Assembly: GCA_003154775.1 (NCBI GenBank)
Contig: PMES01000066.1
Coordinates: 1 to 32,140 of the forward strand
Direction of reading: 5' to 3'
Origin: Acidobacteriota bacterium
GTDB lineage: Bacteria; Acidobacteriota; Terriglobia; Acidiferrales; UBA7541
DNA: 32,140 bases
Below, one piece after another: positions 4,285-15,122 of the stretch. The position numbers were made by a program, and so were the translations under genes. Each line of letters begins with the position of its first letter. Within the stretch, counting starts at the first letter, position 1. The notes beneath the pieces are model-generated. The model had not been told where the DNA came from. It was given only the letters and a program-made list of their open reading frames with translations, and did no database searches.

Positions 4285-4605
4285 ATGTTTGTAATCCTAT
4301 GGGAGTTTGAAGTCAAGCCGGGAAGCGAGTTTGCGTTTGAAAGAGTCTATGGCCCCCAGGGTGACTGGGTCCGTCTCTTTCGCAGCGACCCTCACTACCG
4401 GATGACTCACCTCCTACGGGATACCTCCCGCCCGGGAATTTACTGCACCATGGATTTCTGGGACTCCGCGGTGGCCTACAAAAAATTCAAGAGCGCTCAG
4501 CACGAGACCTACAAGGCACTCGATCAAGCAACACAGGGCCTCACCCTCCGCGAGCGCCACCTAGGCTCGTTCCTGCAGAGCGAACCTGCAACTCCTTCGC
4601 CCTAG
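4285..4605 (+). CDS. ABM-like dimeric alpha/beta-barrel protein
   Basis: The 106-residue protein begins MFVILWEFEVKPGSEFAFERVYG. This resembles the antibiotic biosynthesis monooxygenase (ABM) / dimeric alpha-beta barrel family: a first strand with xxWEFEVKPG, a helix containing FERVYGPQGDWVRLF, a strand GIYCTMDFWDS and the helix AYKKFKSAQHETYKALDQAT. Members include small cofactor-poor monooxygenases and heme-degrading enzymes, but many are uncharacterised, so the substrate cannot be named. The gene stands alone on the plus strand, divergent from the zinc-ribbon gene. Its stop overlaps the last 4 nt of the convergent hpnE gene. No strong ribosome binding site precedes the ATG. Confidence 0.65.
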   Translation: MFVILWEFEVKPGSEFAFERVYGPQGDWVRLFRSDPHYRMTHLLRDTSRPGIYCTMDFWDSAVAYKKFKSAQHETYKALDQATQGLTLRERHLGSFLQSEPATPSP

Positions 4606-6014
4606 CAGAACATCCTCACCAATCCATCGGGCGGCAAGTCTGGCTGGAGGAACTTCCTCGGCTTACCTGCAACACGCAGAACCGCTTCCGCAGCCAGATA
4701 CCCGCTGCGCACCGCGCCTTCCATCGTTGCGGGCCAACCGGTCGCGGTCCAATCCCCCGCCAGAAACATTCCGCAAATCGAGGTCTCTTGCATTGGACGC
4801 CAGCGGTCCACGCCAGGTTGCGGCGAAAATGTGGCCGCGGCTTCCTTGATCACCGTCGCTTTGGTCAGGACGGCCTTGCGCGCGGCGGGCAGCGCATGTC
4901 GCACCTCCGCCAGACACAGATCAATGATTTCCTGCCGGGGCTTCTGCAGTAGATCGTAGGACGCGCTGATGACCAACTGTAGATACTGCCCTTTTTCTCC
5001 AGCAGCCCCGTTTGCGGTTCCATGCAGCGCGGTTTTGTTGAAGATCCATTGCGTCGTGGTTTCCAGAAGGGTCACGAACGGCTCTCGCATGACTTCGCGA
5101 TCGAACCAGAAATGGACCCCGGTGATGGGCGCAACGCGGATGTTGCCCAGATTGGCAAGCGATGGCTCGAGCCGCTTGATTTCCTCAGTCAAAAGATCGG
5201 CAAGCGCTTCATGCGGCAGCGCAAATACATAGCCATCGGCGCTTTCCCGGCGCCCGCCATCAAATTCCACATTGTTCACAGCCCCGCCAGCCAGATGGAT
5301 CGCGCGCAGCGGAGCGCGCAGATTCACTTCCCCGCCCCGCCGCTCGATTTCCGCTTTGCAGCCGTCATATAGTTGCGCCAGCGGAACCCCGGGAACTCCC
5401 ATCCGATAGCCGGTGCGGTTAGAGAGGAATCCCTTCCAGAATACGTCCACGCCATAGCGCGCATCAGTGCGGTCAAGCTCCTCGTCCAGCGCGCTCACCA
5501 ACACCACTCTCCAGAAGCGCTCCATTGCGCCGGGCGTCTGTTTGCGCCGCCGCAGCCATTCCAGCATCGAAATGCCGCCCGCTTCCTCAAGATCCTTTGG
5601 CTTCCCTTTGCTGCGCAGAATATCCATCATCGCGCGGCCGATGGAATATTTGTCCGCCAACGTCAGCGGCGCGAAAGTCGCAAACGACCCGAGCATGTGG
5701 AACGGTGCGGGAAGCAACCCGGCCTGCATTTCACCGGTGCGCCCTTGAGGATCCTGGAACAACAGTCGATCGAAGAATTTGATCTTGTCCGCGGAACCCA
5801 CGCGCCGAAAGAAATCTTCCAGATTCGTGCAGCACCCCAGCGTCACGTGCTGGCAATTGTCCACATGCTCGCCGTCGGGCAACACGTAGGACGTTGCCCG
5901 GCCGCCCAGAAATGGCCGCTGCTCGAACAGTCTCACGCGCCAGCCCGCTTCAGCCAGCGCGACGCCCGCCGACAGCCCCGCCAGTCCCCCGCCGATCACG
6001 ATCACGCTTTGCAA
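4602..6014 (-). CDS. hpnE: HpnE, FAD-dependent hydroxysqualene reductase (squalene-associated desaturase family)
   Basis: HpnE converts hydroxysqualene to squalene, the last step of the HpnC/D/E route. The protein has about 470 residues. Its FAD-binding dinucleotide fold lies at the very start (VIVIGGGLAGLSAG, then the Glu of LFEQRPFLGGRATSY), and it ends with the amine-oxidase-type FAD motif MFLAGDWTATGWPATMEGAVRSGYLAA. There is no ATG. TTG at 6014 is chosen because GGAAGAG lies 7 nt upstream and leaves the Rossmann strand at residues 3-8; TTG at 6056 and GTG at 6005 are alternatives. The gene overlaps the end of hpnCD by 65 nt in another frame and is the last gene of the hopanoid operon. 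Its 3' end meets the convergent ABM-like gene with a 4-nt overlap. Confidence 0.9.
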   Translation of the reverse strand: MQSVIVIGGGLAGLSAGVALAEAGWRVRLFEQRPFLGGRATSYVLPDGEHVDNCQHVTLGCCTNLEDFFRRVGSADKIKFFDRLLFQDPQGRTGEMQAGLLPAPFHMLGSFATFAPLTLADKYSIGRAMMDILRSKGKPKDLEEAGGISMLEWLRRRKQTPGAMERFWRVVLVSALDEELDRTDARYGVDVFWKGFLSNRTGYRMGVPGVPLAQLYDGCKAEIERRGGEVNLRAPLRAIHLAGGAVNNVEFDGGRRESADGYVFALPHEALADLLTEEIKRLEPSLANLGNIRVAPITGVHFWFDREVMREPFVTLLETTTQWIFNKTALHGTANGAAGEKGQYLQLVISASYDLLQKPRQEIIDLCLAEVRHALPAARKAVLTKATVIKEAAATFSPQPGVDRWRPMQETSICGMFLAGDWTATGWPATMEGAVRSGYLAAEAVLRVAGKPRKFLQPDLPPDGLVRMFC

Positions 6015-7899
6015 GTATGTTCTCTTCCGTGTGGCGCCCGAAACGCGCCTTGGCAACCAACTTCAGCTTTTCCGCTTTGGAGAGCCGCACGCGCTCCCCG
6101 AAAACGGCAAAATCCTTCGATTCAATCCGCGCCAGCAGCGCGCTGTAGGTACGCACCAGTAGCCACAACGTGCCCCGGCTGTCCGCGTCAATCAAGCTGA
6201 GCAGCTTTGCGCCTTCCTCGTACAGCTTCCAGGCGCGTTCCGCCTCAAACCGCAGCAATTCATGCACGCCTAGCGTGGCTTCGCTTCTGCCAAAATCCGC
6301 ATTCGCCACGCCGTAGCGTGCCAAATCCTCCTCCGGCAGGTACACACGGCCAATCGCGCAATCTTCCCGAACATCCCGGATGATATTCGTCAGTTGAAAC
6401 GCCAGCCCAAGTTTTTCCGCAAGATCCAGCGCCTTCGCATCGCGAAATCCAAAAATGTGCGTGCAAGTCAGGCCAACGGTCCCTGCCACACGGTAGCAAT
6501 ACTCCTCCAGTCGCTCGAATGAGGGATACGCCTGGATCGTTAAATCCATTTCCGCGCCGGAAATCAGGTCATGCAGATAACGCGCCGGCATGTTGAAGCG
6601 GCCGATCGTGTCCACCAGGGCCGGCAACACCTCTTCTGCGCCCGGCAGCGTGGCCACGGGTGACTCCATCGCGGCGTTTCCGTCGAACACCTGCAACTGC
6701 CCGGTAATCGCCTGATCCAGAGCGGCCCGCCACCTCGCCAGCCCGCGCTGCTTTTCCGCCAGGTTGGCGCCTTCATCGGAAACATCGTCAATCAAGCGCA
6801 TGAACGCATAGAGGGCCACAATCCCGTCGCGCTTCGCTTTCGGCAGCAGGAAAAACGCCGGATAAAAGTTGCTGTGGGCCGCCCGGGCCACGCGGTGGCA
6901 TTCCGCATACGACGCCGCAATTTCCCGCGAAGTTCCATCCGCAACCGAAAATCGTGAGCCTTCGCGTGGAAACCCTCCATTGCGATGCTCGTCGCCGCGG
7001 TCGAACACTTGCGCCACAATCGCGCGCCCCAGCAGCCGCACCTGCTTTCCCTTGCTCACCTTTGGCCGCCGGTTCAGCGTGTCATACCCCATCGCTTCAA
7101 TCGCATGCAGCACCGCCAGCCCGCCCCGGCTGAACATTTCCAGGTCCACGCTCAATTTGCCGCGCACCTTTCTCGATAGCGGCCGCCCTTCTTCAAACAA
7201 TTCCCTCGTCCGGACAATCAACTCTTTCATCAGCGCAACATACCGCTCGCTGAACCTTTTTCCTACAATGTCTTCTTCGCTGATGCCATGCGCCGCGGCC
7301 CGCTCCAGCGGTATATAAATTCGTCCCTTTTCCAGATCCCGCGAAACATCCTGCCAGAAATTGGCAAGCTGCAGCGCCGTGCAAGTCGCATCGGAAAGCC
7401 GTTGCCGGTGGTCATCCCGGTAACCGCATAGGTACAGCACCAGCCGCCCAACGGGATTTGCCGAGTACACACAATAATCAAGGACGGCTTCCCAGGTCCC
7501 ATAGCGCTTGACGACCTGGTCCTGACGAAACGCCTTCAGTAAATCCGCAAACGGCTGCTTCGGAATATCCTTGGCCACCACCGTCTCGCGCAGCGCCACA
7601 AATACCGGATGCGCAGGTCTCCCCTCGTAGCAAGCGTCTAACTCCCGCTCCCACCAGTCCAGCAACTCCAGCGCTCGCTCTTTCGATGGGATCTCGTCTC
7701 CGAGATCATCCGCCCACCGGCAATACGCGTACACGTTATAGAAATGCTGGTGCAGTTCTTTCGGCAGCAGCCAGGAGACTACATTGAAATTTTCGTAGTG
7801 GTGCGTTGCCAGCCACCGCGTGTAGGCCTGCGCTACATCCACCGCGCACCCGTTGGCGGGCAGTTTGGCAGCGATCTCAAGTTCGCCGGGACGCAGCAT
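5950..7899 (-). CDS. hpnCD: HpnC-HpnD fusion: bifunctional squalene-pathway synthase
   Basis: A single 649-residue ORF carries two complete squalene/phytoene-synthase domains. Residues about 20-290 are HpnC-like, with ADDLGDE at 63-69 and NFWQDVSRD at 180-188 followed by GRIYIP. Residues about 325-615 are HpnD-like, with DDVSDE at 371-376 and NIIRDVRED at 505-513 followed by GRVYLP. In the known pathway HpnD joins two farnesyl diphosphates to presqualene diphosphate and HpnC turns this into hydroxysqualene. These enzymes are normally separate proteins of about 280-300 residues. All Asp-rich motifs are intact in both halves, so both should be active. A linker of about 30 residues (300-325) joins them. 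The last 20 or so residues (RDRDRRGTGG...) are an out-of-frame reading of the hpnE start and look like a late extension. The gene is in the hopanoid operon, 88 nt after the second MDR gene. Confidence 0.92.
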   Translation of the reverse strand: MLRPGELEIAAKLPANGCAVDVAQAYTRWLATHHYENFNVVSWLLPKELHQHFYNVYAYCRWADDLGDEIPSKERALELLDWWERELDACYEGRPAHPVFVALRETVVAKDIPKQPFADLLKAFRQDQVVKRYGTWEAVLDYCVYSANPVGRLVLYLCGYRDDHRQRLSDATCTALQLANFWQDVSRDLEKGRIYIPLERAAAHGISEEDIVGKRFSERYVALMKELIVRTRELFEEGRPLSRKVRGKLSVDLEMFSRGGLAVLHAIEAMGYDTLNRRPKVSKGKQVRLLGRAIVAQVFDRGDEHRNGGFPREGSRFSVADGTSREIAASYAECHRVARAAHSNFYPAFFLLPKAKRDGIVALYAFMRLIDDVSDEGANLAEKQRGLARWRAALDQAITGQLQVFDGNAAMESPVATLPGAEEVLPALVDTIGRFNMPARYLHDLISGAEMDLTIQAYPSFERLEEYCYRVAGTVGLTCTHIFGFRDAKALDLAEKLGLAFQLTNIIRDVREDCAIGRVYLPEEDLARYGVANADFGRSEATLGVHELLRFEAERAWKLYEEGAKLLSLIDADSRGTLWLLVRTYSALLARIESKDFAVFGERVRLSKAEKLKLVAKARFGRHTEENILAKRDRDRRGTGGAVGGRRAG

Positions 7900-7987: not shown

Positions 7988-9073
7988 TTACGGCCTCACG
8001 GCCAGCTTGATTTCGCCGCTGCGCGCCTTCATGCGCTCAAACGCCTGTGGCAGATCTACCAGGCCAATCTCTTCGGTGACAAAATCCTGCGCCGATATAT
8101 CGCCACGGCGGATTGCTTCCATCGCTTCACGGATAAAGCGCGGTGTGTGATGGAACGGTGAAATGATCTTGATTTCCGAATAATGGATGGCTGCCGGCGC
8201 GATTTCCACCCGCGTGTCTTTGGGGAGTCCGCTGAAGAAATTCACCACCCCGCCGCGCCGCACCATCGCCAGCGCCTGCTGCCAGGTTGCGGGATTGCCG
8301 GCGGCTTCCACAACGCAGTCCGGCCCGCGCTGCTCGTCGGTCAGCGCCTTCACGGCAGCGGCAACGTCGGCAACCTCGGTGACATTGATGGTCGCCACGG
8401 CACCCAACTTGCGTGCAACCTCCAACGGAGCTTCCCGCCGGGCCAGCGCAATCACGCGCACGCCGCGGCGCGACAACATGCGCACAAATTTCAGGCCGAT
8501 GGGACCGCAACCAATCACCGCGGCCGTGTCGCCCGTGCGCACTTCCATCTCATGAATCCCGCGCAGCACGCATGCCAGGGGTTCCACCAGCGCGGCGCTG
8601 TGGTCGTCTATTGAGTGCGGCACTTCCAGCATGTTCTCCCGGACGATGCGTCCAGGAATGCGCATGTATTCCGCGTACGCCCCGTTGTTAAAAAGCAGAT
8701 CCTCGCAAAGATTTTCCTGGCCGCGGCGGCATTGGTAGCAACGGAAGCACGGGGCGGAGTTGGCGGCAATCACACGAACGCCCAGCCGCCATTTCGCGTC
8801 CACGCGCTTCCCCATGGCCACAATCTCGCCGACAACTTCGTGGCCAAACACAGCCGGAGGCCGGATCATTTTCGCGTGGTAGCCGCGTTTCCAGACCTTC
8901 AGGTCGGTGCCATCGGTCAGCGCCAGGCGCACGCGCAGAAGCACCTCTTCGGCCGACAATGCGGGCACATCGATTTGCTCGATGCGCAGATCTTCGCTGC
9001 CGTAGAGCACCGCCGCCGTCATTCTTGACGGCACAAGGATCTTCGTCGGGGCCAGCACTTCTTCCACCCCCAT
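7988..9073 (-). CDS. Zinc-type MDR dehydrogenase, catalytic Cys replaced (hopanoid operon)
   Basis: The product is a medium-chain dehydrogenase of about 361 residues in the polyol/threonine dehydrogenase group: GroES-like N-terminal domain, Rossmann NAD(P) motif GCGPIG near 188-193, and a structural-zinc lobe with four cysteines (C109, C112, C115, C123). GHE is present (H78, E79), as is E164 in LVEPLACV. At the usual CGTD motif the sequence reads DGTD, so the catalytic-zinc Cys is Asp54. Zinc binding through Asp or a changed activity are both possible. The start is set at ATG 9073 because AAAGGA lies 5 nt upstream; ATG 9103 is also in frame and would overlap the upstream gene in an ATGA arrangement, but has no ribosome binding site. 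Its place between hpnG and hpnCD suggests a step in hopanoid side-chain metabolism. The substrate is unknown. Confidence 0.85.
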   Translation of the reverse strand: MGVEEVLAPTKILVPSRMTAAVLYGSEDLRIEQIDVPALSAEEVLLRVRLALTDGTDLKVWKRGYHAKMIRPPAVFGHEVVGEIVAMGKRVDAKWRLGVRVIAANSAPCFRCYQCRRGQENLCEDLLFNNGAYAEYMRIPGRIVRENMLEVPHSIDDHSAALVEPLACVLRGIHEMEVRTGDTAAVIGCGPIGLKFVRMLSRRGVRVIALARREAPLEVARKLGAVATINVTEVADVAAAVKALTDEQRGPDCVVEAAGNPATWQQALAMVRRGGVVNFFSGLPKDTRVEIAPAAIHYSEIKIISPFHHTPRFIREAMEAIRRGDISAQDFVTEEIGLVDLPQAFERMKARSGEIKLAVRP

Positions 9074-9099
9074 CTCAGTCCTTTTTGTAAATGCTGCTC

Positions 9100-10206
9100 T
9101 CATTGGTGCGTGATCAGGACCTTAAGCGATGTTTCCGTGGGCCTTGCCGCCAGTTCCAGGCCCTCTTGGATTCTACCTAGCGGAAACCGGTGCGTCACAA
9201 TCTCCATCACCGGCAGTTTCTTCTCCAACACCAGCGCCGCCGCACTCTCTTGGATGTCCACGGCCGCGCTGTAGCTGCCCAAAATTTCTTTCTCGTCAAT
9301 CCCTATCGCCGCGGCAGGAAACTCAATTTTCGTGACAGGGTCGTTTGCGGCAAACAGAAGCACCCTGCCACCTGGCCGCGCCGCTGCCAAAGCATCTACG
9401 ACCACGGCCGGGTGCGCTACAGCCACCAGGACCGCGTCTGCCCCCCGTCCTTCGGTACGGGCGTGCAACTCTTCCACAAGCTTATCATTTATGGGGTCAA
9501 AAGACTCCACCGCTCCCAACCTCAAGCTTTTCTCGCGCCGCGTGGCCATGGGGTCACTCGTATAGATGCGCGCGCCCTCATATTTGGCAACCATCAGAAG
9601 TTGCAGCCCGATGGGGCCGCACCCGGCGATGAGCACCGTCTCGCCAGCCGTGATGCGCGCCTTCTGCACGGCCTTCACGATGGTATTGATGGGCTCGATG
9701 AACGTGGCCTCCTCAAACGTCACATTGGCCGGCAGCGCCACGATCCCGCGCGCCGCCACCCAGGGCATCGCTTTCACGTATTCCCCAAAGCCCCCGCCAT
9801 TCGGCGTGAACCCCCCGGTCAACCCGGTCGTTTTGTACTGCTTGCACTGCGAAAAGAGCCGGTTCTTGCAGTAAAAGCACGCGCCGCAGGGAACGTGGTG
9901 GAAACTCATCACGCGGTCGCCTAATTTCCATTTGGTCACGCCACGCCCCAGCGCAACGACGGTTCCGGCCAGCTCATGGCCCAGGATCTGCGGCGGTTCC
10001 ACATAGCGCTGAAATATCTTCTTGATGTCCGTGCCGCAGATGCCGCAGGCCGCCACCTTAATAAGCACTTCGCCGTCCCGCACCTCCGGCACAGGCACTT
10101 CCTCGACGCGCACCACGCCCTTCTCCCGGAACACCCCCGCCCGCATCGTCCTCGGTATCGGCCCCAGCGTCCTCACCTGTTCCACCACCGTCGCCGCCCC
10201 GCTCAT
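9100..10206 (-). CDS. Zinc-dependent MDR alcohol/polyol dehydrogenase (hopanoid operon)
   Basis: This 368-residue medium-chain dehydrogenase has a full set of zinc ligands. Catalytic site: C57 in CGICGTD, H77/E78 in GHE and E171 in FIEPINT. Structural site: C107, C110, C113 and C121. The NAD(P) fold has GCGPIG at 195-200, with an acidic residue (D217 in YTSDPMA) after the second strand. It is closest in pattern to sorbitol/threonine dehydrogenase-like enzymes that interconvert sugars or ketones and polyols. The ATG overlaps the hpnG stop in an ATGA arrangement, so translation is probably coupled to hpnG. That coupling makes a reaction on the HpnG product (ribosylhopane) or a derivative plausible, but this is inference. 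A shared ancestor with the next MDR gene is likely, although the two proteins are clearly diverged. Confidence 0.88.
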   Translation of the reverse strand: MSGAATVVEQVRTLGPIPRTMRAGVFREKGVVRVEEVPVPEVRDGEVLIKVAACGICGTDIKKIFQRYVEPPQILGHELAGTVVALGRGVTKWKLGDRVMSFHHVPCGACFYCKNRLFSQCKQYKTTGLTGGFTPNGGGFGEYVKAMPWVAARGIVALPANVTFEEATFIEPINTIVKAVQKARITAGETVLIAGCGPIGLQLLMVAKYEGARIYTSDPMATRREKSLRLGAVESFDPINDKLVEELHARTEGRGADAVLVAVAHPAVVVDALAAARPGGRVLLFAANDPVTKIEFPAAAIGIDEKEILGSYSAAVDIQESAAALVLEKKLPVMEIVTHRFPLGRIQEGLELAARPTETSLKVLITHQ

Positions 10207-10973
10207 CGCGCCGCCACCTCTTCTAAGCCCTCACCATCCGGAAACCATCCGTGGGTAAAGAGAGATAGTTTTTTGATGTAGGCTTCCAAAAAGTTCGCTA
10301 GTGACAACGCCGCAATGCGGCTGTCTCGCCCCAAGCGAAACAGCGCTGGTAGCTGCATCGGATGCCTTCCCAAATAAAGCAGAACTCCGCCGAGACGTAT
10401 CTTCCCCTTCTCATTAACAGTCATATCCAGATCCATAGGAAGCTCTTTGTCATCGCTGTCAGAAATGACCCGGATCGCCACAGCCGGTCGGCCACATTTC
10501 TGTGCTGCGCTCAATACACCAAAGCTTTCCATGTCCACGAACTCGGCAAAAGGAGCCAATTGCGCCTTTTCTTCGACCGTTCTGACAATGTGATCGGAAG
10601 TAAGCAGCAACCTGGCTCGAACTGCCTTTTGTTCCCACGCGTTCAGCGTCAATCCTCGGCCACAGGTCAATGTCTCGGATTTGCCCAATAGTTGAACCGC
10701 TTCCGAAACCATTACTGTTCCGGGCTTTAGTTGCGGTCGCAAAGCTCCTGCAAATCCTGCCGCAATACAAAAATCATGCGATTTTGTCAGAACCGCCGTG
10801 GTCGCGCTTTGAGCATTCTCAAGCCCCATTCCGCTCACTACAAAATCTACTGCCGCTCGTCCGATCATTGCTTCATGAACGGTGATTCCGTTGATCTCCC
10901 GTGACGACAGATTCCGCAACTTGCGCCACGGCGCAAACTCCGCTTCCACCGCAAATGTAACCAGCACCCTCAT
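10203..10973 (-). CDS. hpnG: HpnG, hopanoid-associated nucleoside phosphorylase
   Basis: HpnG is thought to release adenine from adenosylhopane, giving (phospho)ribosylhopane. The protein has 256 residues and the fold of the MTA/SAH nucleosidase and purine phosphorylase superfamily. It begins MRVLVTFAVEAEFAPWRKL and has the Gly-rich strand VSGMGLENAQSAT, CIAAGFAGALRP, PGTVMVSEAV, the substrate-binding VDMESFGV (M148, E149) and VISDSDDKEL with the general-acid Asp region. The frame is open far upstream, but homology and a ribosome binding site (AAGGAAG, 5 nt before ATG) fix the start at 10973. It is fourth in the operon: 38 nt after hpnA, and its stop overlaps the start of the first MDR gene by 4 nt. 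Confidence 0.88.
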   Translation of the reverse strand: MRVLVTFAVEAEFAPWRKLRNLSSREINGITVHEAMIGRAAVDFVVSGMGLENAQSATTAVLTKSHDFCIAAGFAGALRPQLKPGTVMVSEAVQLLGKSETLTCGRGLTLNAWEQKAVRARLLLTSDHIVRTVEEKAQLAPFAEFVDMESFGVLSAAQKCGRPAVAIRVISDSDDKELPMDLDMTVNEKGKIRLGGVLLYLGRHPMQLPALFRLGRDSRIAALSLANFLEAYIKKLSLFTHGWFPDGEGLEEVAAR

Positions 10974-11011: not shown

Positions 11012-12031
11012 TCACCCCTCCGCCAACTTCATCTTCTTCGCCCGCCCCGCCCTCACATATCCATTCGCCTGATACCACCGCACCGCGCGTTCCAGCGCCG
11101 CCGCCACCGGCCCCGGCTGAAATCCCAATTCCCGCCGCGCGCGCGAAGCATCCACAAACATCTTGTGCCGCGCAATCTTCACGCCTTCCACGGGAATCCC
11201 CGGCTCTTTCCCAATCAATCGCGAAAACGCACTTTCCACGTAGGCTACACCCAACGCCACCCCGTGCGGGATTTTCATCCCCGGCGCCGGCAAACCCGTG
11301 ATCTTCGCCAGCGTGTCCAGCAATTCCTTCAGCGTCAGATTCTCCGCACCCAGCAAATACCGCTCGCCAATCTTGCCCTTCTCCGAAACCAGCAAATGCC
11401 CCGCCGCGCACTCCTCCACGCCCACGAAGTTCAATCCCGTCTCGACGTAACCCGGCATCTTCCCATTCAGAAAATCCAAAATAATCTTTCCCGTTGGCGT
11501 GGGCTTCCAATCCCAGGGCCCCACCGGCGTGGTGGGCATCGCCACCATCACCGGCAACCCTTCCTTCGCCGCGTTCAACACTTCCTGTTCGGCCATCCAT
11601 TTCGAGCGCTTGTAGTGCCCGATCATCTCCTCGAGATTTGCCTCCGTGAATTCGTTGGGGAGTTCGGGCCGGTCCACCGCGATCGTCGCCACGGTGCTGG
11701 TGTAAATCAATTGGCCGACGCCGGCGTGCTTCGCGGCTGCCAACAAATTCTTCGTCCCGCCCACGTTCGAATCGTAAATGTCCTGCGGATGCTTCGCCCA
11801 CAGCCGATAATCCGCCGCCACGTGAAACACGCGCTGCACGCCGTTCATCGCGCGTTCCAGCGAGGCCGCGTCGCGCAGATCCCCCGTCACGTACTCCAGC
11901 GGCAAATCGCTGATCGCGCGATTGCTGCTCGAAGCACGCACTAGCACGCGCACATCATCGCCGCGCGCCACCAATTGCCGCGCCACATGGCTGCCCAGAA
12001 ATCCCGCCGCGCCCGTCACGAGTGTCGTCAT
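11012..12031 (-). CDS. hpnA: HpnA, hopanoid-associated SDR sugar epimerase
   Basis: This is a 339-residue extended short-chain dehydrogenase. The NAD(P) motif TGAAGFLG is at residues 6-13. A downstream VTGDLRD motif, the active-site Ser/Thr region IYTSTVAT and the catalytic YKRSK (Y-x3-K) are all present. HpnA proteins are encoded in hopanoid clusters and are annotated as sugar epimerases or dihydroflavonol-reductase-like proteins. Their exact reaction is not firmly established; work on the sugar-derived side chain is the usual proposal. The start is ATG 12031, where the Rossmann fold begins. This ATG overlaps the hpnH stop (TCAT on the plus strand), a 4-nt coupling overlap. The frame is open another 17 codons upstream inside hpnH, but those residues are unlike the family. 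Confidence 0.88.
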   Translation of the reverse strand: MTTLVTGAAGFLGSHVARQLVARGDDVRVLVRASSSNRAISDLPLEYVTGDLRDAASLERAMNGVQRVFHVAADYRLWAKHPQDIYDSNVGGTKNLLAAAKHAGVGQLIYTSTVATIAVDRPELPNEFTEANLEEMIGHYKRSKWMAEQEVLNAAKEGLPVMVAMPTTPVGPWDWKPTPTGKIILDFLNGKMPGYVETGLNFVGVEECAAGHLLVSEKGKIGERYLLGAENLTLKELLDTLAKITGLPAPGMKIPHGVALGVAYVESAFSRLIGKEPGIPVEGVKIARHKMFVDASRARRELGFQPGPVAAALERAVRWYQANGYVRAGRAKKMKLAEG

Positions 12032-13071
12032 GGCTTCCGCACGCTTTCCCGCTTCTCGCCCAGCCCGCCGCCGAATTGCCACGCCAGCATCTTCCAGGCG
12101 TCGCCCGCTTTGCGATTCACTCCCAGCAGGGCCGCCGTCTCAAAGCCGGAGTGACACGAGCACGTCTCGCACCGCGGGTTCATTCCCCGCCCAAAATTCT
12201 CCCAGAGCGTATCCTCCAGCAGCGCTTTATAGCTTTTCTCCAGGCTATAATTCAGCAGATAGCAGGGACCCGACCAGCCACCCGGCCCGTACACTGGGCT
12301 CCCCCCCACGCTGCAATCGAGTTCGCGTTCGCCGCGCAAATATTCCAGGTAAACCGGCGACACCAGCAAATTATAATCACTCAGGGAATCGCTGATTTCC
12401 GCGAACCGGTGGTGCATCTCAGCGTGGAATTTGGCGCTAGCGTCCCGGCAGACTTTTCCGGGCAGGTACACCGGCGCAAGCATGTAGCCATCCACGTGCA
12501 TCCCATGGAGTTTCGCATACAGCGCCTCCAGATCCCGCACATCGCTGTCCGGATATACCGTCGATGTCACCACCACAAAAAAGCCCGCATTCTTCGCGGC
12601 CTTCACGCCATCCAGCGCCTCCGCAAATTGTCCCGGCTTGCCCGCGCGGGAGTCGTGGACGGCTTCCGTGCCGTCAAGCTTCACGTTCCAAAACAAATTG
12701 GTCTCCGGCGGGATCATGTGCAAACACTGCCGAATCAGCGTGCCATTCGTACATAGGAAAAGATGCTTGCCGCGGTCCAGGATCGCGCGCGTCAACTCCG
12801 CGATTCCCTCATACTCCAGCGGTTCGCCGCCGCAGATAGCCACCACGGGCACGTCGCACTCCTCCATCGCCGCCAGGCATTGCTCCACGCTGAGCGGCGT
12901 CCGGCGCTGCGATGGCGCTTGCCCATTACCGCCATTCGATCCGCCGCACGCGCCCGCACGGCCGCCCAGAGGGTCCAGCGTGAGCATGACCGCGAATTTC
13001 GGCTCGCCGCGCAGTTTCTGCGTCGCGAGATGCTTGGCGGAATCGAAAATCAGCCGGAGGGGATACCGCAT
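12028..13071 (-). CDS. hpnH: HpnH-like adenosylhopane synthase lacking the CxxxCxxC motif
   Basis: HpnH enzymes are radical-SAM proteins that add the 5'-deoxyadenosyl group to hopene (diploptene). This 347-residue protein follows the family along its length: MRYPLRLIFDSAKHLATQKLRG at the start, KFAVMLTLDPL, LSVEQCLAAMEECDVPVVAICGGEPL (radical-SAM GGEP at 81-84), CTNGTL, NVKLDGTE and a C-terminal cysteine cluster (C301, C304, C306) before HSGFE. Between DPL (33-35) and LSVEQC (60-65), where the family has the cluster-binding CxxxCxxC, there is a Gly/Ser/Asn-rich stretch of similar length with a single cysteine (C42). The three [4Fe-4S] ligands are therefore absent. Other reading frames of this stretch do not restore them. 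The gene overlaps the shc end by 22 nt and the hpnA start by 4 nt. Confidence 0.82.
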   Translation of the reverse strand: MRYPLRLIFDSAKHLATQKLRGEPKFAVMLTLDPLGGRAGACGGSNGGNGQAPSQRRTPLSVEQCLAAMEECDVPVVAICGGEPLEYEGIAELTRAILDRGKHLFLCTNGTLIRQCLHMIPPETNLFWNVKLDGTEAVHDSRAGKPGQFAEALDGVKAAKNAGFFVVVTSTVYPDSDVRDLEALYAKLHGMHVDGYMLAPVYLPGKVCRDASAKFHAEMHHRFAEISDSLSDYNLLVSPVYLEYLRGERELDCSVGGSPVYGPGGWSGPCYLLNYSLEKSYKALLEDTLWENFGRGMNPRCETCSCHSGFETAALLGVNRKAGDAWKMLAWQFGGGLGEKRESVRKP

Positions 13072-15122
13072 TGTTTTGCTTCGGAAGCGCTGCGCTCGCG
13101 TGCCGTATACAGGCCGCGGCGCACACGGAATTCGCCCGGCCGGAACTTAACGGCGCAATATTCCTGCGCCCGGCTGGCTTGATTGCGATAACGCGCCAGC
13201 GCATACACCGGGAACGAATTCTTGTAGAGGTGATACTTCAAATAAAAAACGCCGGGGAAGCCCGTGCCGGTGAAATCCTCTTCGCTCCAGGAACCATTGG
13301 CATTCTGTTGCTGCACCAGGTACGCGGCGGCGCGCGCGATCGCCGGATCGTCGGGATCCGCGCCCGCGAGCAATCCAATCAATCCCCAGGCGGTCTGCGA
13401 TGGCGTGCTATTGCCCTGCGCCTTGGTGGAGACCGCCTCATAGCTGCGCAGCGACTCGCCAAAGCTCCCATCGGCTTTCTGCACCTGCCGCAGCCAGGCG
13501 ACGGCGCGCACGCAATAATTCTGCGCCGTCAGCGACACGGTCTCCAGCGCTCGCAAAACGCCGCTTGTGCCGTACACGTAATTCACGCCCCAGCGCCCAA
13601 ACCACGATCCATCCTTGCTCTGATCTTTCATCAGGAACTGCACGGCCTTCTGAACCACCGGGTGATCGCCGGGCCACCCGAACCGCCCCAGGCATTCCAC
13701 TACCCGCGCGGTGACGTCTGCCGTAGAAGGATCGATCATCGCGTTATGGTCCGCGAAGGGTATATTGCAAAGGATCTGCCGGTTGTTGTCGCGGTCAAAA
13801 GCGCCCCATCCGCCATCGCGGTTCTGCATGCTGAGCAACCACTGAATTCCCCGGCGCATTGCTGATTCCATGCGCTTCTCGTCCGGGAATTTCACCCGCT
13901 GCAACGCCATCAAGACGAACGCGGTGTCATCCACGTCGGGATAAAAGTCATTGCGGAACTCAAACGCCCAGCCGCCCGGCTCGGCGTCCTTGTTCTTGAT
14001 CTGCCAATCGCCCTTGCCCAGGACCTGCTTCGTCAGAATCCACTCCGCCGCCTTCACCAACGCCGGATGATCCGCAGGCAATCCCGCTTCCTCAAGAGCT
14101 ACCATGGCGATACACGTATCCCATACGGGGGAAACGCAAGGCTGCAGGCGAATAGTGTCGCCTTCCTCAATCTCAAACCGCGAAAACTCCTTGATCTCCC
14201 GCCACGTAATCGGATCTTCCGGCCCATGCCCCAGCGCCATCAGCGCAAAAATCGAGTTCATCATCGAAGGATAGATGGCCGCGAGCCCCTCGGTCCGCTC
14301 CATGTGCTGCAGCATCCATTCCTTGGCTTCCTTGATGGCCTTTTGCCGCAACGGTTTCCACGGCAGCTTCTCGTACAGCTTCAACCCGCGGTCCACCGCG
14401 AGAAACAGGTTTTTCCAGGAGAGGATCTGCTTGCTCCAGTTGAATGCCGCCGTTTTCTGCGTGGGATCCTTGAACAGTTCGTCCACCCGCGCGTGTTCCG
14501 GCAGGCGAAACTCCGGCCGCACCGACGACAATATCGCCATCGGAATCACGATCCCGCGCGTCCAAGAAGACATCTCGTAAATATTGAAATAGAACCAGTT
14601 CGGCAGCAGCACCAATTCCGGCGGAATCGCCGGCACCAACTCCCAGCCCACGGCTCCCACCAGCGCCAGATAAAAACGCACGTAGGAATTCGTGTGTTCC
14701 AGTCCGCCCAGGCGGTGAACGGCCTCGCGCGCCTTGATCATATGCGGCGCGTCAGGAGAATCCCCCGCCAGCTTTAGCGCGAAATAGGCCTTCGAGGTGG
14801 CATTGAGTTCCGAGGCGCCGCCAGGATAAATCGGCCAGCCGCCATCGCCCATCTGCTTCCGCCGGACATAGTTGGCCAGCTTGGCGATGCGCGCCGGATC
14901 GGCCTTGTCAAGTACGTGCAGGTAGTAGATGTAATCGGATTCGAGGGTGGTATCGGCCTCGAGTTCGCCGTGCCAATACCCTTCCTCAGCTTGAATGGAT
15001 AGGAGATACTCGGTGCCGTTCTCGACGGCCTTTTCCACCTGCTCCGCCCAAGTCTCCTGACGCCATGGTGATGGCGCGGGCGCGACCGGCAACTCCTCCC
15101 CAATACGTATGTACGAGCCCAT
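13050..15122 (-). CDS. shc: Squalene-hopene cyclase
   Basis: Shc (HpnF) cyclises squalene to hopene and hopanol at the inner face of the cytoplasmic membrane. The 690-residue protein has the catalytic DVDD at 396-399 (in FYPDVDDTAF). It also has repeated QW motifs, for example QAEEGYWHGEL (44-54), KQMGDGGWP (89-97), MQNRDGGWGAF (432-442), DQSKDGSWFGRWG (500-512), QKADGSFGES (548-557) and QQNANGSWSEEDF (605-617). The membrane-insertion region around WFYFNIYEMSSWTRGIVIPMAIL is also recognisable. Length is normal up to about residue 648; a basic tail of some 40 residues follows and runs 22 nt into hpnH. A ribosome binding site, GGGGGAG, precedes the ATG. It is the first gene of the operon, about 130 nt downstream of a predicted transcription start. 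Confidence 0.97.
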   Translation of the reverse strand: MGSYIRIGEELPVAPAPSPWRQETWAEQVEKAVENGTEYLLSIQAEEGYWHGELEADTTLESDYIYYLHVLDKADPARIAKLANYVRRKQMGDGGWPIYPGGASELNATSKAYFALKLAGDSPDAPHMIKAREAVHRLGGLEHTNSYVRFYLALVGAVGWELVPAIPPELVLLPNWFYFNIYEMSSWTRGIVIPMAILSSVRPEFRLPEHARVDELFKDPTQKTAAFNWSKQILSWKNLFLAVDRGLKLYEKLPWKPLRQKAIKEAKEWMLQHMERTEGLAAIYPSMMNSIFALMALGHGPEDPITWREIKEFSRFEIEEGDTIRLQPCVSPVWDTCIAMVALEEAGLPADHPALVKAAEWILTKQVLGKGDWQIKNKDAEPGGWAFEFRNDFYPDVDDTAFVLMALQRVKFPDEKRMESAMRRGIQWLLSMQNRDGGWGAFDRDNNRQILCNIPFADHNAMIDPSTADVTARVVECLGRFGWPGDHPVVQKAVQFLMKDQSKDGSWFGRWGVNYVYGTSGVLRALETVSLTAQNYCVRAVAWLRQVQKADGSFGESLRSYEAVSTKAQGNSTPSQTAWGLIGLLAGADPDDPAIARAAAYLVQQQNANGSWSEEDFTGTGFPGVFYLKYHLYKNSFPVYALARYRNQASRAQEYCAVKFRPGEFRVRRGLYTARERSASEAKQCGIPSG

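Follow-up and report, generated by a model that had tools for sequence, protein, structure and literature searches.

A clusterless HpnH-like protein, apparently maintained as a pseudoenzyme, in the hopanoid operon of uncultured soil acidobacteria

HpnH, the adenosylhopane synthase of hopanoid lipid biosynthesis, uses radical chemistry and has three loop cysteines (CxxxCxxC) for the radical-SAM [4Fe-4S] cluster; in radical SAM proteins the usual motif for the SAM amino group is GGEPL. The passages of PMC12583986 on the Zymomonas enzyme give Cys106 as its catalytic cysteine. Clusters of shc with hpnH and of hpnA with hpnG are described in Acidobacteria in the passages of PMC5462960 on acidobacterial hopanoid clusters, and a clusterless form of HpnH is absent from those passages. 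Among the matches listed from open-licence papers there were none on a pseudo-HpnH.

The stretch of DNA analysed here, called the window, is 32,140 nucleotides long (contig PMES01000066.1, assembly GCA_003154775.1) and comes from a genus of uncultured soil acidobacteria. It carries a hopanoid-lipid operon in which the slot between shc and hpnA holds an HpnH-like gene without the cluster motif.

4602..7899, minus strand: hpnCD fusion and hpnE (profile match)
7988..10206, minus strand: tandem pair of zinc-dependent medium-chain dehydrogenases, a conserved part of the operon
10203..10973, minus strand: hpnG-like nucleoside phosphorylase (profile match, 127 bits, below the cut-off of 187)
11012..12031, minus strand: hpnA (profile match, TIGR03466, 444 bits)
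12028..13071, minus strand: clusterless HpnH-like gene, 347 aa, between shc and hpnA (open reading frame, TIGR03470, Pfam, orthologues)
12091..12426, minus strand: DUF3463 C-terminal domain with C253, C270, C301 and C304 (Pfam, alignment)
12751..12753, minus strand: C107 in LCTNG (alignment)
12817..12831, minus strand: residues 81-85, GGEPL, kept (alignment)
12892..12966, minus strand: residues 36-60, Gly/Ser/Asn-rich loop in place of the CxxxCxxC loop, only C42 left (alignment, dN/dS)
13050..15122, minus strand: shc, squalene-hopene cyclase (TIGR01507, 780 bits), the only copy found in the genome

The slot gene is an intact ORF of 347 aa, and TIGR03470 (HpnH, NCBIfam) matches residues 1-315 of its product with 253 bits against a cut-off of 225.05, in agreement with an earlier note, made from the DNA sequence, that had described a full-length, in-frame, HpnH-like protein. 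The window protein is HpnH by curated score and not by its CxxxCxxC ligands. In Pfam it matches DUF3463 (94.1 bits) and Radical_SAM (PF04055, 47.1 bits, cut-off 29.5), the latter only over profile positions 23-164 with the best stretch beginning at residue 55, beyond the cluster loop. The partial barrel fold of PF04055 is present and its three-cysteine cluster motif is absent. When the protein was aligned with 11 canonical-motif HpnH-like proteins, the canonical loop CNLTCTGCGRI or CNLACAGCGKI was found to be replaced by GGRAGACGGSNGGNG, and the sole loop cysteine, C42, fell in the column of the second ligand. This bears out the earlier note, which had reported a replaced ligand loop with one cysteine. 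The window protein lacks the set of three loop cysteines that would bind the radical-SAM [4Fe-4S] cluster, and radical HpnH chemistry is therefore not expected of it. The motif is absent from all six frames of 12850-13010, as the note had also said of the alternative frames, which rules out a motif concealed in another frame.

AlphaFold models of the window protein and a canonical relative were made with only five sequences and are weak overall (mean pLDDT 60.5 and 60.7, the window protein having 60.7). The loop is not modelled, and residues 61-200 of the window model reach block means of 72-95 pLDDT. Among PDB structures this model matches best to BlsE, a radical SAM enzyme (Foldseek E 2.8e-11, TM 0.49). 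A solved HpnH was not found by sequence, none of the five PDB matches at E <= 0.01 being named HpnH.

The earlier note had allowed for an error in a GC-rich stretch, and an error of sequencing or assembly has nothing in its favour except the GC-rich loop itself. Three full-length slot orthologues from the same genus, in G035, G021 and G020 (90%, 68% and 66% identity), lack the motif at the same place, with loops that read GGCMGNCGG, GGWASSCGG and GGCVSPCNG, respectively. The three metagenome-assembled genomes (Candidatus Acidiferrum typicum UBA7541, Centralia_MAG_27 and Inc-BW-C-12-M_MAG69) have different isolate names and accession prefixes. The same loss in three other assemblies excludes error or chance, and the dN/dS pattern described below contradicts an error as well, which leaves this explanation a negligible probability. 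With a profile of the clusterless form only the window protein and these three orthologues scored above 700 bits among 399 genomes drawn from the class, the next best having 413 bits. A match at E <= 0.001 was obtained in 60 of the 61 genomes searched (its own and 60 relatives). A scan of a named genome collection, built on two short peptide patterns and thus able to miss members, gave four loci, namely the three orthologues and one relative at 44%. A phage home for the slot gene was also considered and rejected, as viral contigs held 0 confirmed relatives.

The stretch between shc and hpnA was read in 36 genomes of the genus, all of which have SHC and HpnA, some in pieces. A canonical HpnH occupies the slot in three (G007, G009, G010), a full-length clusterless HpnH in four (the window genome, G000, with G035, G021 and G020), and a shortened clusterless HpnH-like gene in 25. 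Three genomes (G034, G022, G005) have an empty slot, and that of G015 is unassembled. Of the short genes, 23 are intact ORFs of 232-289 aa; the exceptions are G011, which has a frame break (L088), and G030, which has a run of N. With G011 and G030 left out, CxxxCxxC is found in none of the four full-length clusterless proteins, none of the 23 readable short forms and all three canonical slot proteins. The loss of the motif is thus genus-wide, and most relatives carry a further reduced form. In G005 (L113), where the slot is gone, the shc match is in two pieces and the hpnA match starts late; the position of G005 close to the canonical group in the tree has weak support.

The short forms have lost the cluster loop as well as the DUF3463 domain that carries the four cysteines, and no DUF3463 match was present in the three short proteins scanned. 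They keep 17 invariant alignment columns (n=23), which lie mostly in the barrel core. A profile built from 20 short forms, with six candidates scored per genome, picked out 25 genomes with at least 236 bits, each of them from this genus; the next best score among the 399 class genomes, 178 bits, was in a full-length canonical-type gene.

Two proteins of the window genome exceed the HpnH cut-off, the slot protein and a second one encoded at G000:C145:92301-93248 (541.5 bits to TIGR03470). The earlier note had raised the possibility of a second hpnH, and this copy is intact, with the canonical motif CNLACAGCGKI. There are no hopanoid genes around it in the stretch read, where the neighbours, judged from their translations, include lipA-like and argJ-like genes. 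Of the 33 genomes in which no canonical slot copy is known (G015, with its unassembled slot, among them), 32 have an intact-looking HpnH elsewhere, and it carries CNLACAGC in all 32 genomes where it was read. A second HpnH was not found in any of the three genomes with a canonical slot copy, and G016 (86% complete) yielded neither a canonical slot copy nor a second HpnH. Few independent events underlie this mutually exclusive pattern of the two HpnH copies.

The main rival to a maintained protein is slow decay, in which a redundant hpnH is being eroded and the constraint is either left over or that of an open frame needed for translational coupling from shc to hpnA. The shrinkage of the gene fits decay, as do the three empty slots in 36 genomes and the frame break in G011, which indicate that the gene is dispensable in some lineages. 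In G034 and G022 hpnA follows directly after shc. Coupling is suggested by the ATGA overlap with hpnA, which occurs in 25 of 30 slots. The rates of change bear on this question. By simple pairwise counting (NG86), in which many pairs have dS above 1, dN/dS is 0.12-0.17 in four full-length clusterless pairs, 0.07 and 0.13 in two canonical slot pairs, and 0.13-0.33 in the 16 measurable of 17 short pairs (the closest 14 plus three; G001/G003 is saturated). In the same short pairs SHC, HpnA and HpnH2 have only 0.02-0.08, and this faster evolution of the short forms than of their neighbours also fits weakened constraint. Decay is harder to reconcile with the amino-acid constraint itself, which a spacer does not need. 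Residues 61-347 have a dN/dS of 0.08-0.10 between G000 and G035, the measurable short pairs all stay below 0.34, and 23 of the 25 short genes can still be read as intact ORFs, with identities down to 30%. We therefore consider slow decay unlikely, and the earlier note's suggestion of a dead enzyme, taken as a decaying gene, is disfavoured by the values for the full-length pairs.

Between G000 and G035 the constraint is unevenly distributed. The dN/dS is 0.41 for residues 1-35, 1.76 for residues 36-60, 0.098 for residues 61-200 and 0.076 for residues 201-347, compared with 0.071 for SHC, 0.107 for HpnA and 0.093 for HpnH2 in the same pair of genomes. In the loop 10.5 nonsynonymous changes fall on 53.8 sites, and in the rest of the gene 26.5 fall on 735.8, an excess for the loop (Fisher p 5e-5) whose limits were set post hoc from the alignment. 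By these regional values the body of the protein is mostly constrained and the cluster loop alone has been fully released. Substitutions at the three codon positions number 19, 17 and 69, and the third-position excess in the HpnH frame rules out an antisense gene as the source of the constraint. By pairwise counts the slot protein thus combines a lost catalytic motif with a dN/dS well below 1, as is expected of a pseudoenzyme of HpnH, and selection still seems to act on it in many species.

In the window the slot gene shares 22 bases with shc, and the ATG of hpnA overlaps its TGA as ATGA at 12028-12031. The order shc, slot, hpnA, hpnG, two zinc dehydrogenases, hpnCD and hpnE was seen in the 15 loci checked, canonical outgroups included, except that the G034 slot is empty and some loci are cut inside hpnE. 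G032 does have a short gene, seen when the slot is read, although the operon search did not pick it up. The zinc-dependent dehydrogenase pair sits between hpnG and hpnCD in 15 of 15 operons checked, and the two enzymes are candidates for the unassigned reduction of ribosylhopane to bacteriohopanetetrol. In the window hpnC and hpnD are fused into a gene of 649 aa (5950-7899, minus strand), and in the outgroup loci L123 and L127 they are two separate matches; a fused hpnCD is mentioned for other acidobacteria in passages of PMC5462960. The hpnG genes of the window (10203-10973, minus strand) and G035 (L116:9912-10628) differ strongly for such close relatives. Their products are 37% identical, the flanking genes being 96-97% identical, and at the DNA level a match of 84% extends over the first ~85 bases and then ends. 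The window HpnG is nearer to that of G036, from another genus (49%), and the difference is likely to reflect a gene replacement.

The history of the slot was examined with two trees. In the slot-gene tree, calculated from 140 columns (residues 61-200), all 27 clusterless proteins fall into a single clade (support 92/90, not starred) that splits into full-length (100/99) and short (100/100) groups. In the tree of SHC and HpnA the full-length group is nested in the short group. The two are in conflict, the SHC and HpnA tree pointing to several independent truncations and the slot-gene tree placing the short forms in one clade, and AU tests, with groups named post hoc, reject the picture of each tree on the other data (p 3e-6; 0.007, 0.003). 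Parallel truncation combined with long-branch effects could explain the conflict, as could recombination within the operon, which the hpnG breakpoint between the window and G035 makes plausible. A single loss of the cluster is favoured.

Our preferred reading, to which we give somewhat better than even chances, is that the original hpnH of the operon turned in place into a maintained clusterless pseudoenzyme. A second HpnH, acquired or duplicated, would have taken over adenosylhopane synthesis, and the old operon copy would then have been retained for a non-catalytic task. The slot protein now probably does a non-radical job, and the earlier note's option of a non-radical relative in an intact operon gains support. 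The likeliest task would be the binding of hopene or of a partner enzyme, through which SHC and the active HpnH would be coordinated. Such a binding role is a guess, and a rather doubtful one, proposed because the gene lies between those of the cyclase and HpnA, overlaps both neighbours and keeps the barrel core (GGxEPL, TDG, HxxxP). Equally tentative is the idea that the operon-borne synthase has become a dedicated non-radical subunit, which would serve as an activator or as a hopene-handling adaptor standing between SHC and the second HpnH, in a genus whose living species show canonical, full-length clusterless and shortened states at one locus. A regulator role is a further possible reading.

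In the column of C107, which we take to be the position of Zymomonas Cys106, there is Cys in the window protein and G035, Ser in G021, Tyr in G020 and Glu in 19 of 23 short forms. A different enzyme might be envisaged, one that binds SAM, another nucleotide or hopene and carries out a non-radical hopanoid step, for example an unassigned one after adenosylhopane; both the Glu at the presumed catalytic position and the kept GGEPL and barrel core would suit it. The full-length forms, however, lack that Glu, the loop is gone, the short forms have lost the C-terminal domain too, and G034, whose slot is empty, retains hpnA and hpnG, all of which make a new enzyme quite improbable.

The cysteines C253, C270, C301 and C304 are kept in all four full-length clusterless forms and are candidate ligands of an auxiliary cluster. 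They are invariant in canonical proteins too and are thus not replacements for the lost ligands; C306 was seen only in the window protein and G035, so that the possibility, raised in the earlier note, of ligands at C301, C304 and C306 holds poorly. The DUF3463 cysteines of the full-length forms might hold a putative auxiliary cluster that passes electrons to the active HpnH, much as passages of PMC10470005 describe intermolecular electron transfer in PapB, likely via an auxiliary cluster. The 23 short forms lack the domain, however, so this cannot be the shared function, and we regard it as highly improbable. A further cysteine, C208 (12448-12450), in the context (V/M/L)CR(D/N), occurs in every one of the four full-length clusterless proteins and in none of the 11 aligned proteins with the canonical motif.

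One practical consequence is that the curated family TIGR03470 names the motif-less slot protein adenosylhopane synthase, so that hopanoid pathways predicted from metagenomes can be credited to a gene that is not the right one. Should the selected function be real, the genus would offer a radical SAM relative able to work with no cluster, together with numerous natural intermediates to study, and would hint at an unrecognised component passing diploptene from the cyclase to HpnH.

Among known systems, the prozyme of trypanosome AdoMetDC (PMC6221367), a catalytically dead paralogue that acts as an activator, is similar in being an inactive paralogue kept alongside an active one, but a heterodimer or activation would be speculative for the slot protein. 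With HpnH itself (TIGR03470) the slot protein shares the full-length alignment, DUF3463, GGEPL and an operon with shc, hpnA and hpnG; unlike HpnH, it is without CxxxCxxC and scores 253 bits against 420-536 in the three canonical-motif members scanned, and three short forms scanned of the 25 have only 48-99 bits. The pseudo-SAM/SPASM family TIGR04347 (pseudo_SAM_Halo, NCBIfam) is likewise a radical SAM relative named pseudo-SAM, but it is a different subfamily to which the window protein has a weak match (44.9 bits, cut-off 525), and since three canonical HpnH proteins match it equally well or better (46.8-58.6 bits), there is no special kinship. QueE carries its cluster motif and, unlike the slot protein, is also an active radical SAM enzyme. 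The likeness to QueE lies in its moonlighting in division, where, according to passages of PMC11142719, a radical SAM protein has a role that is independent of catalysis.
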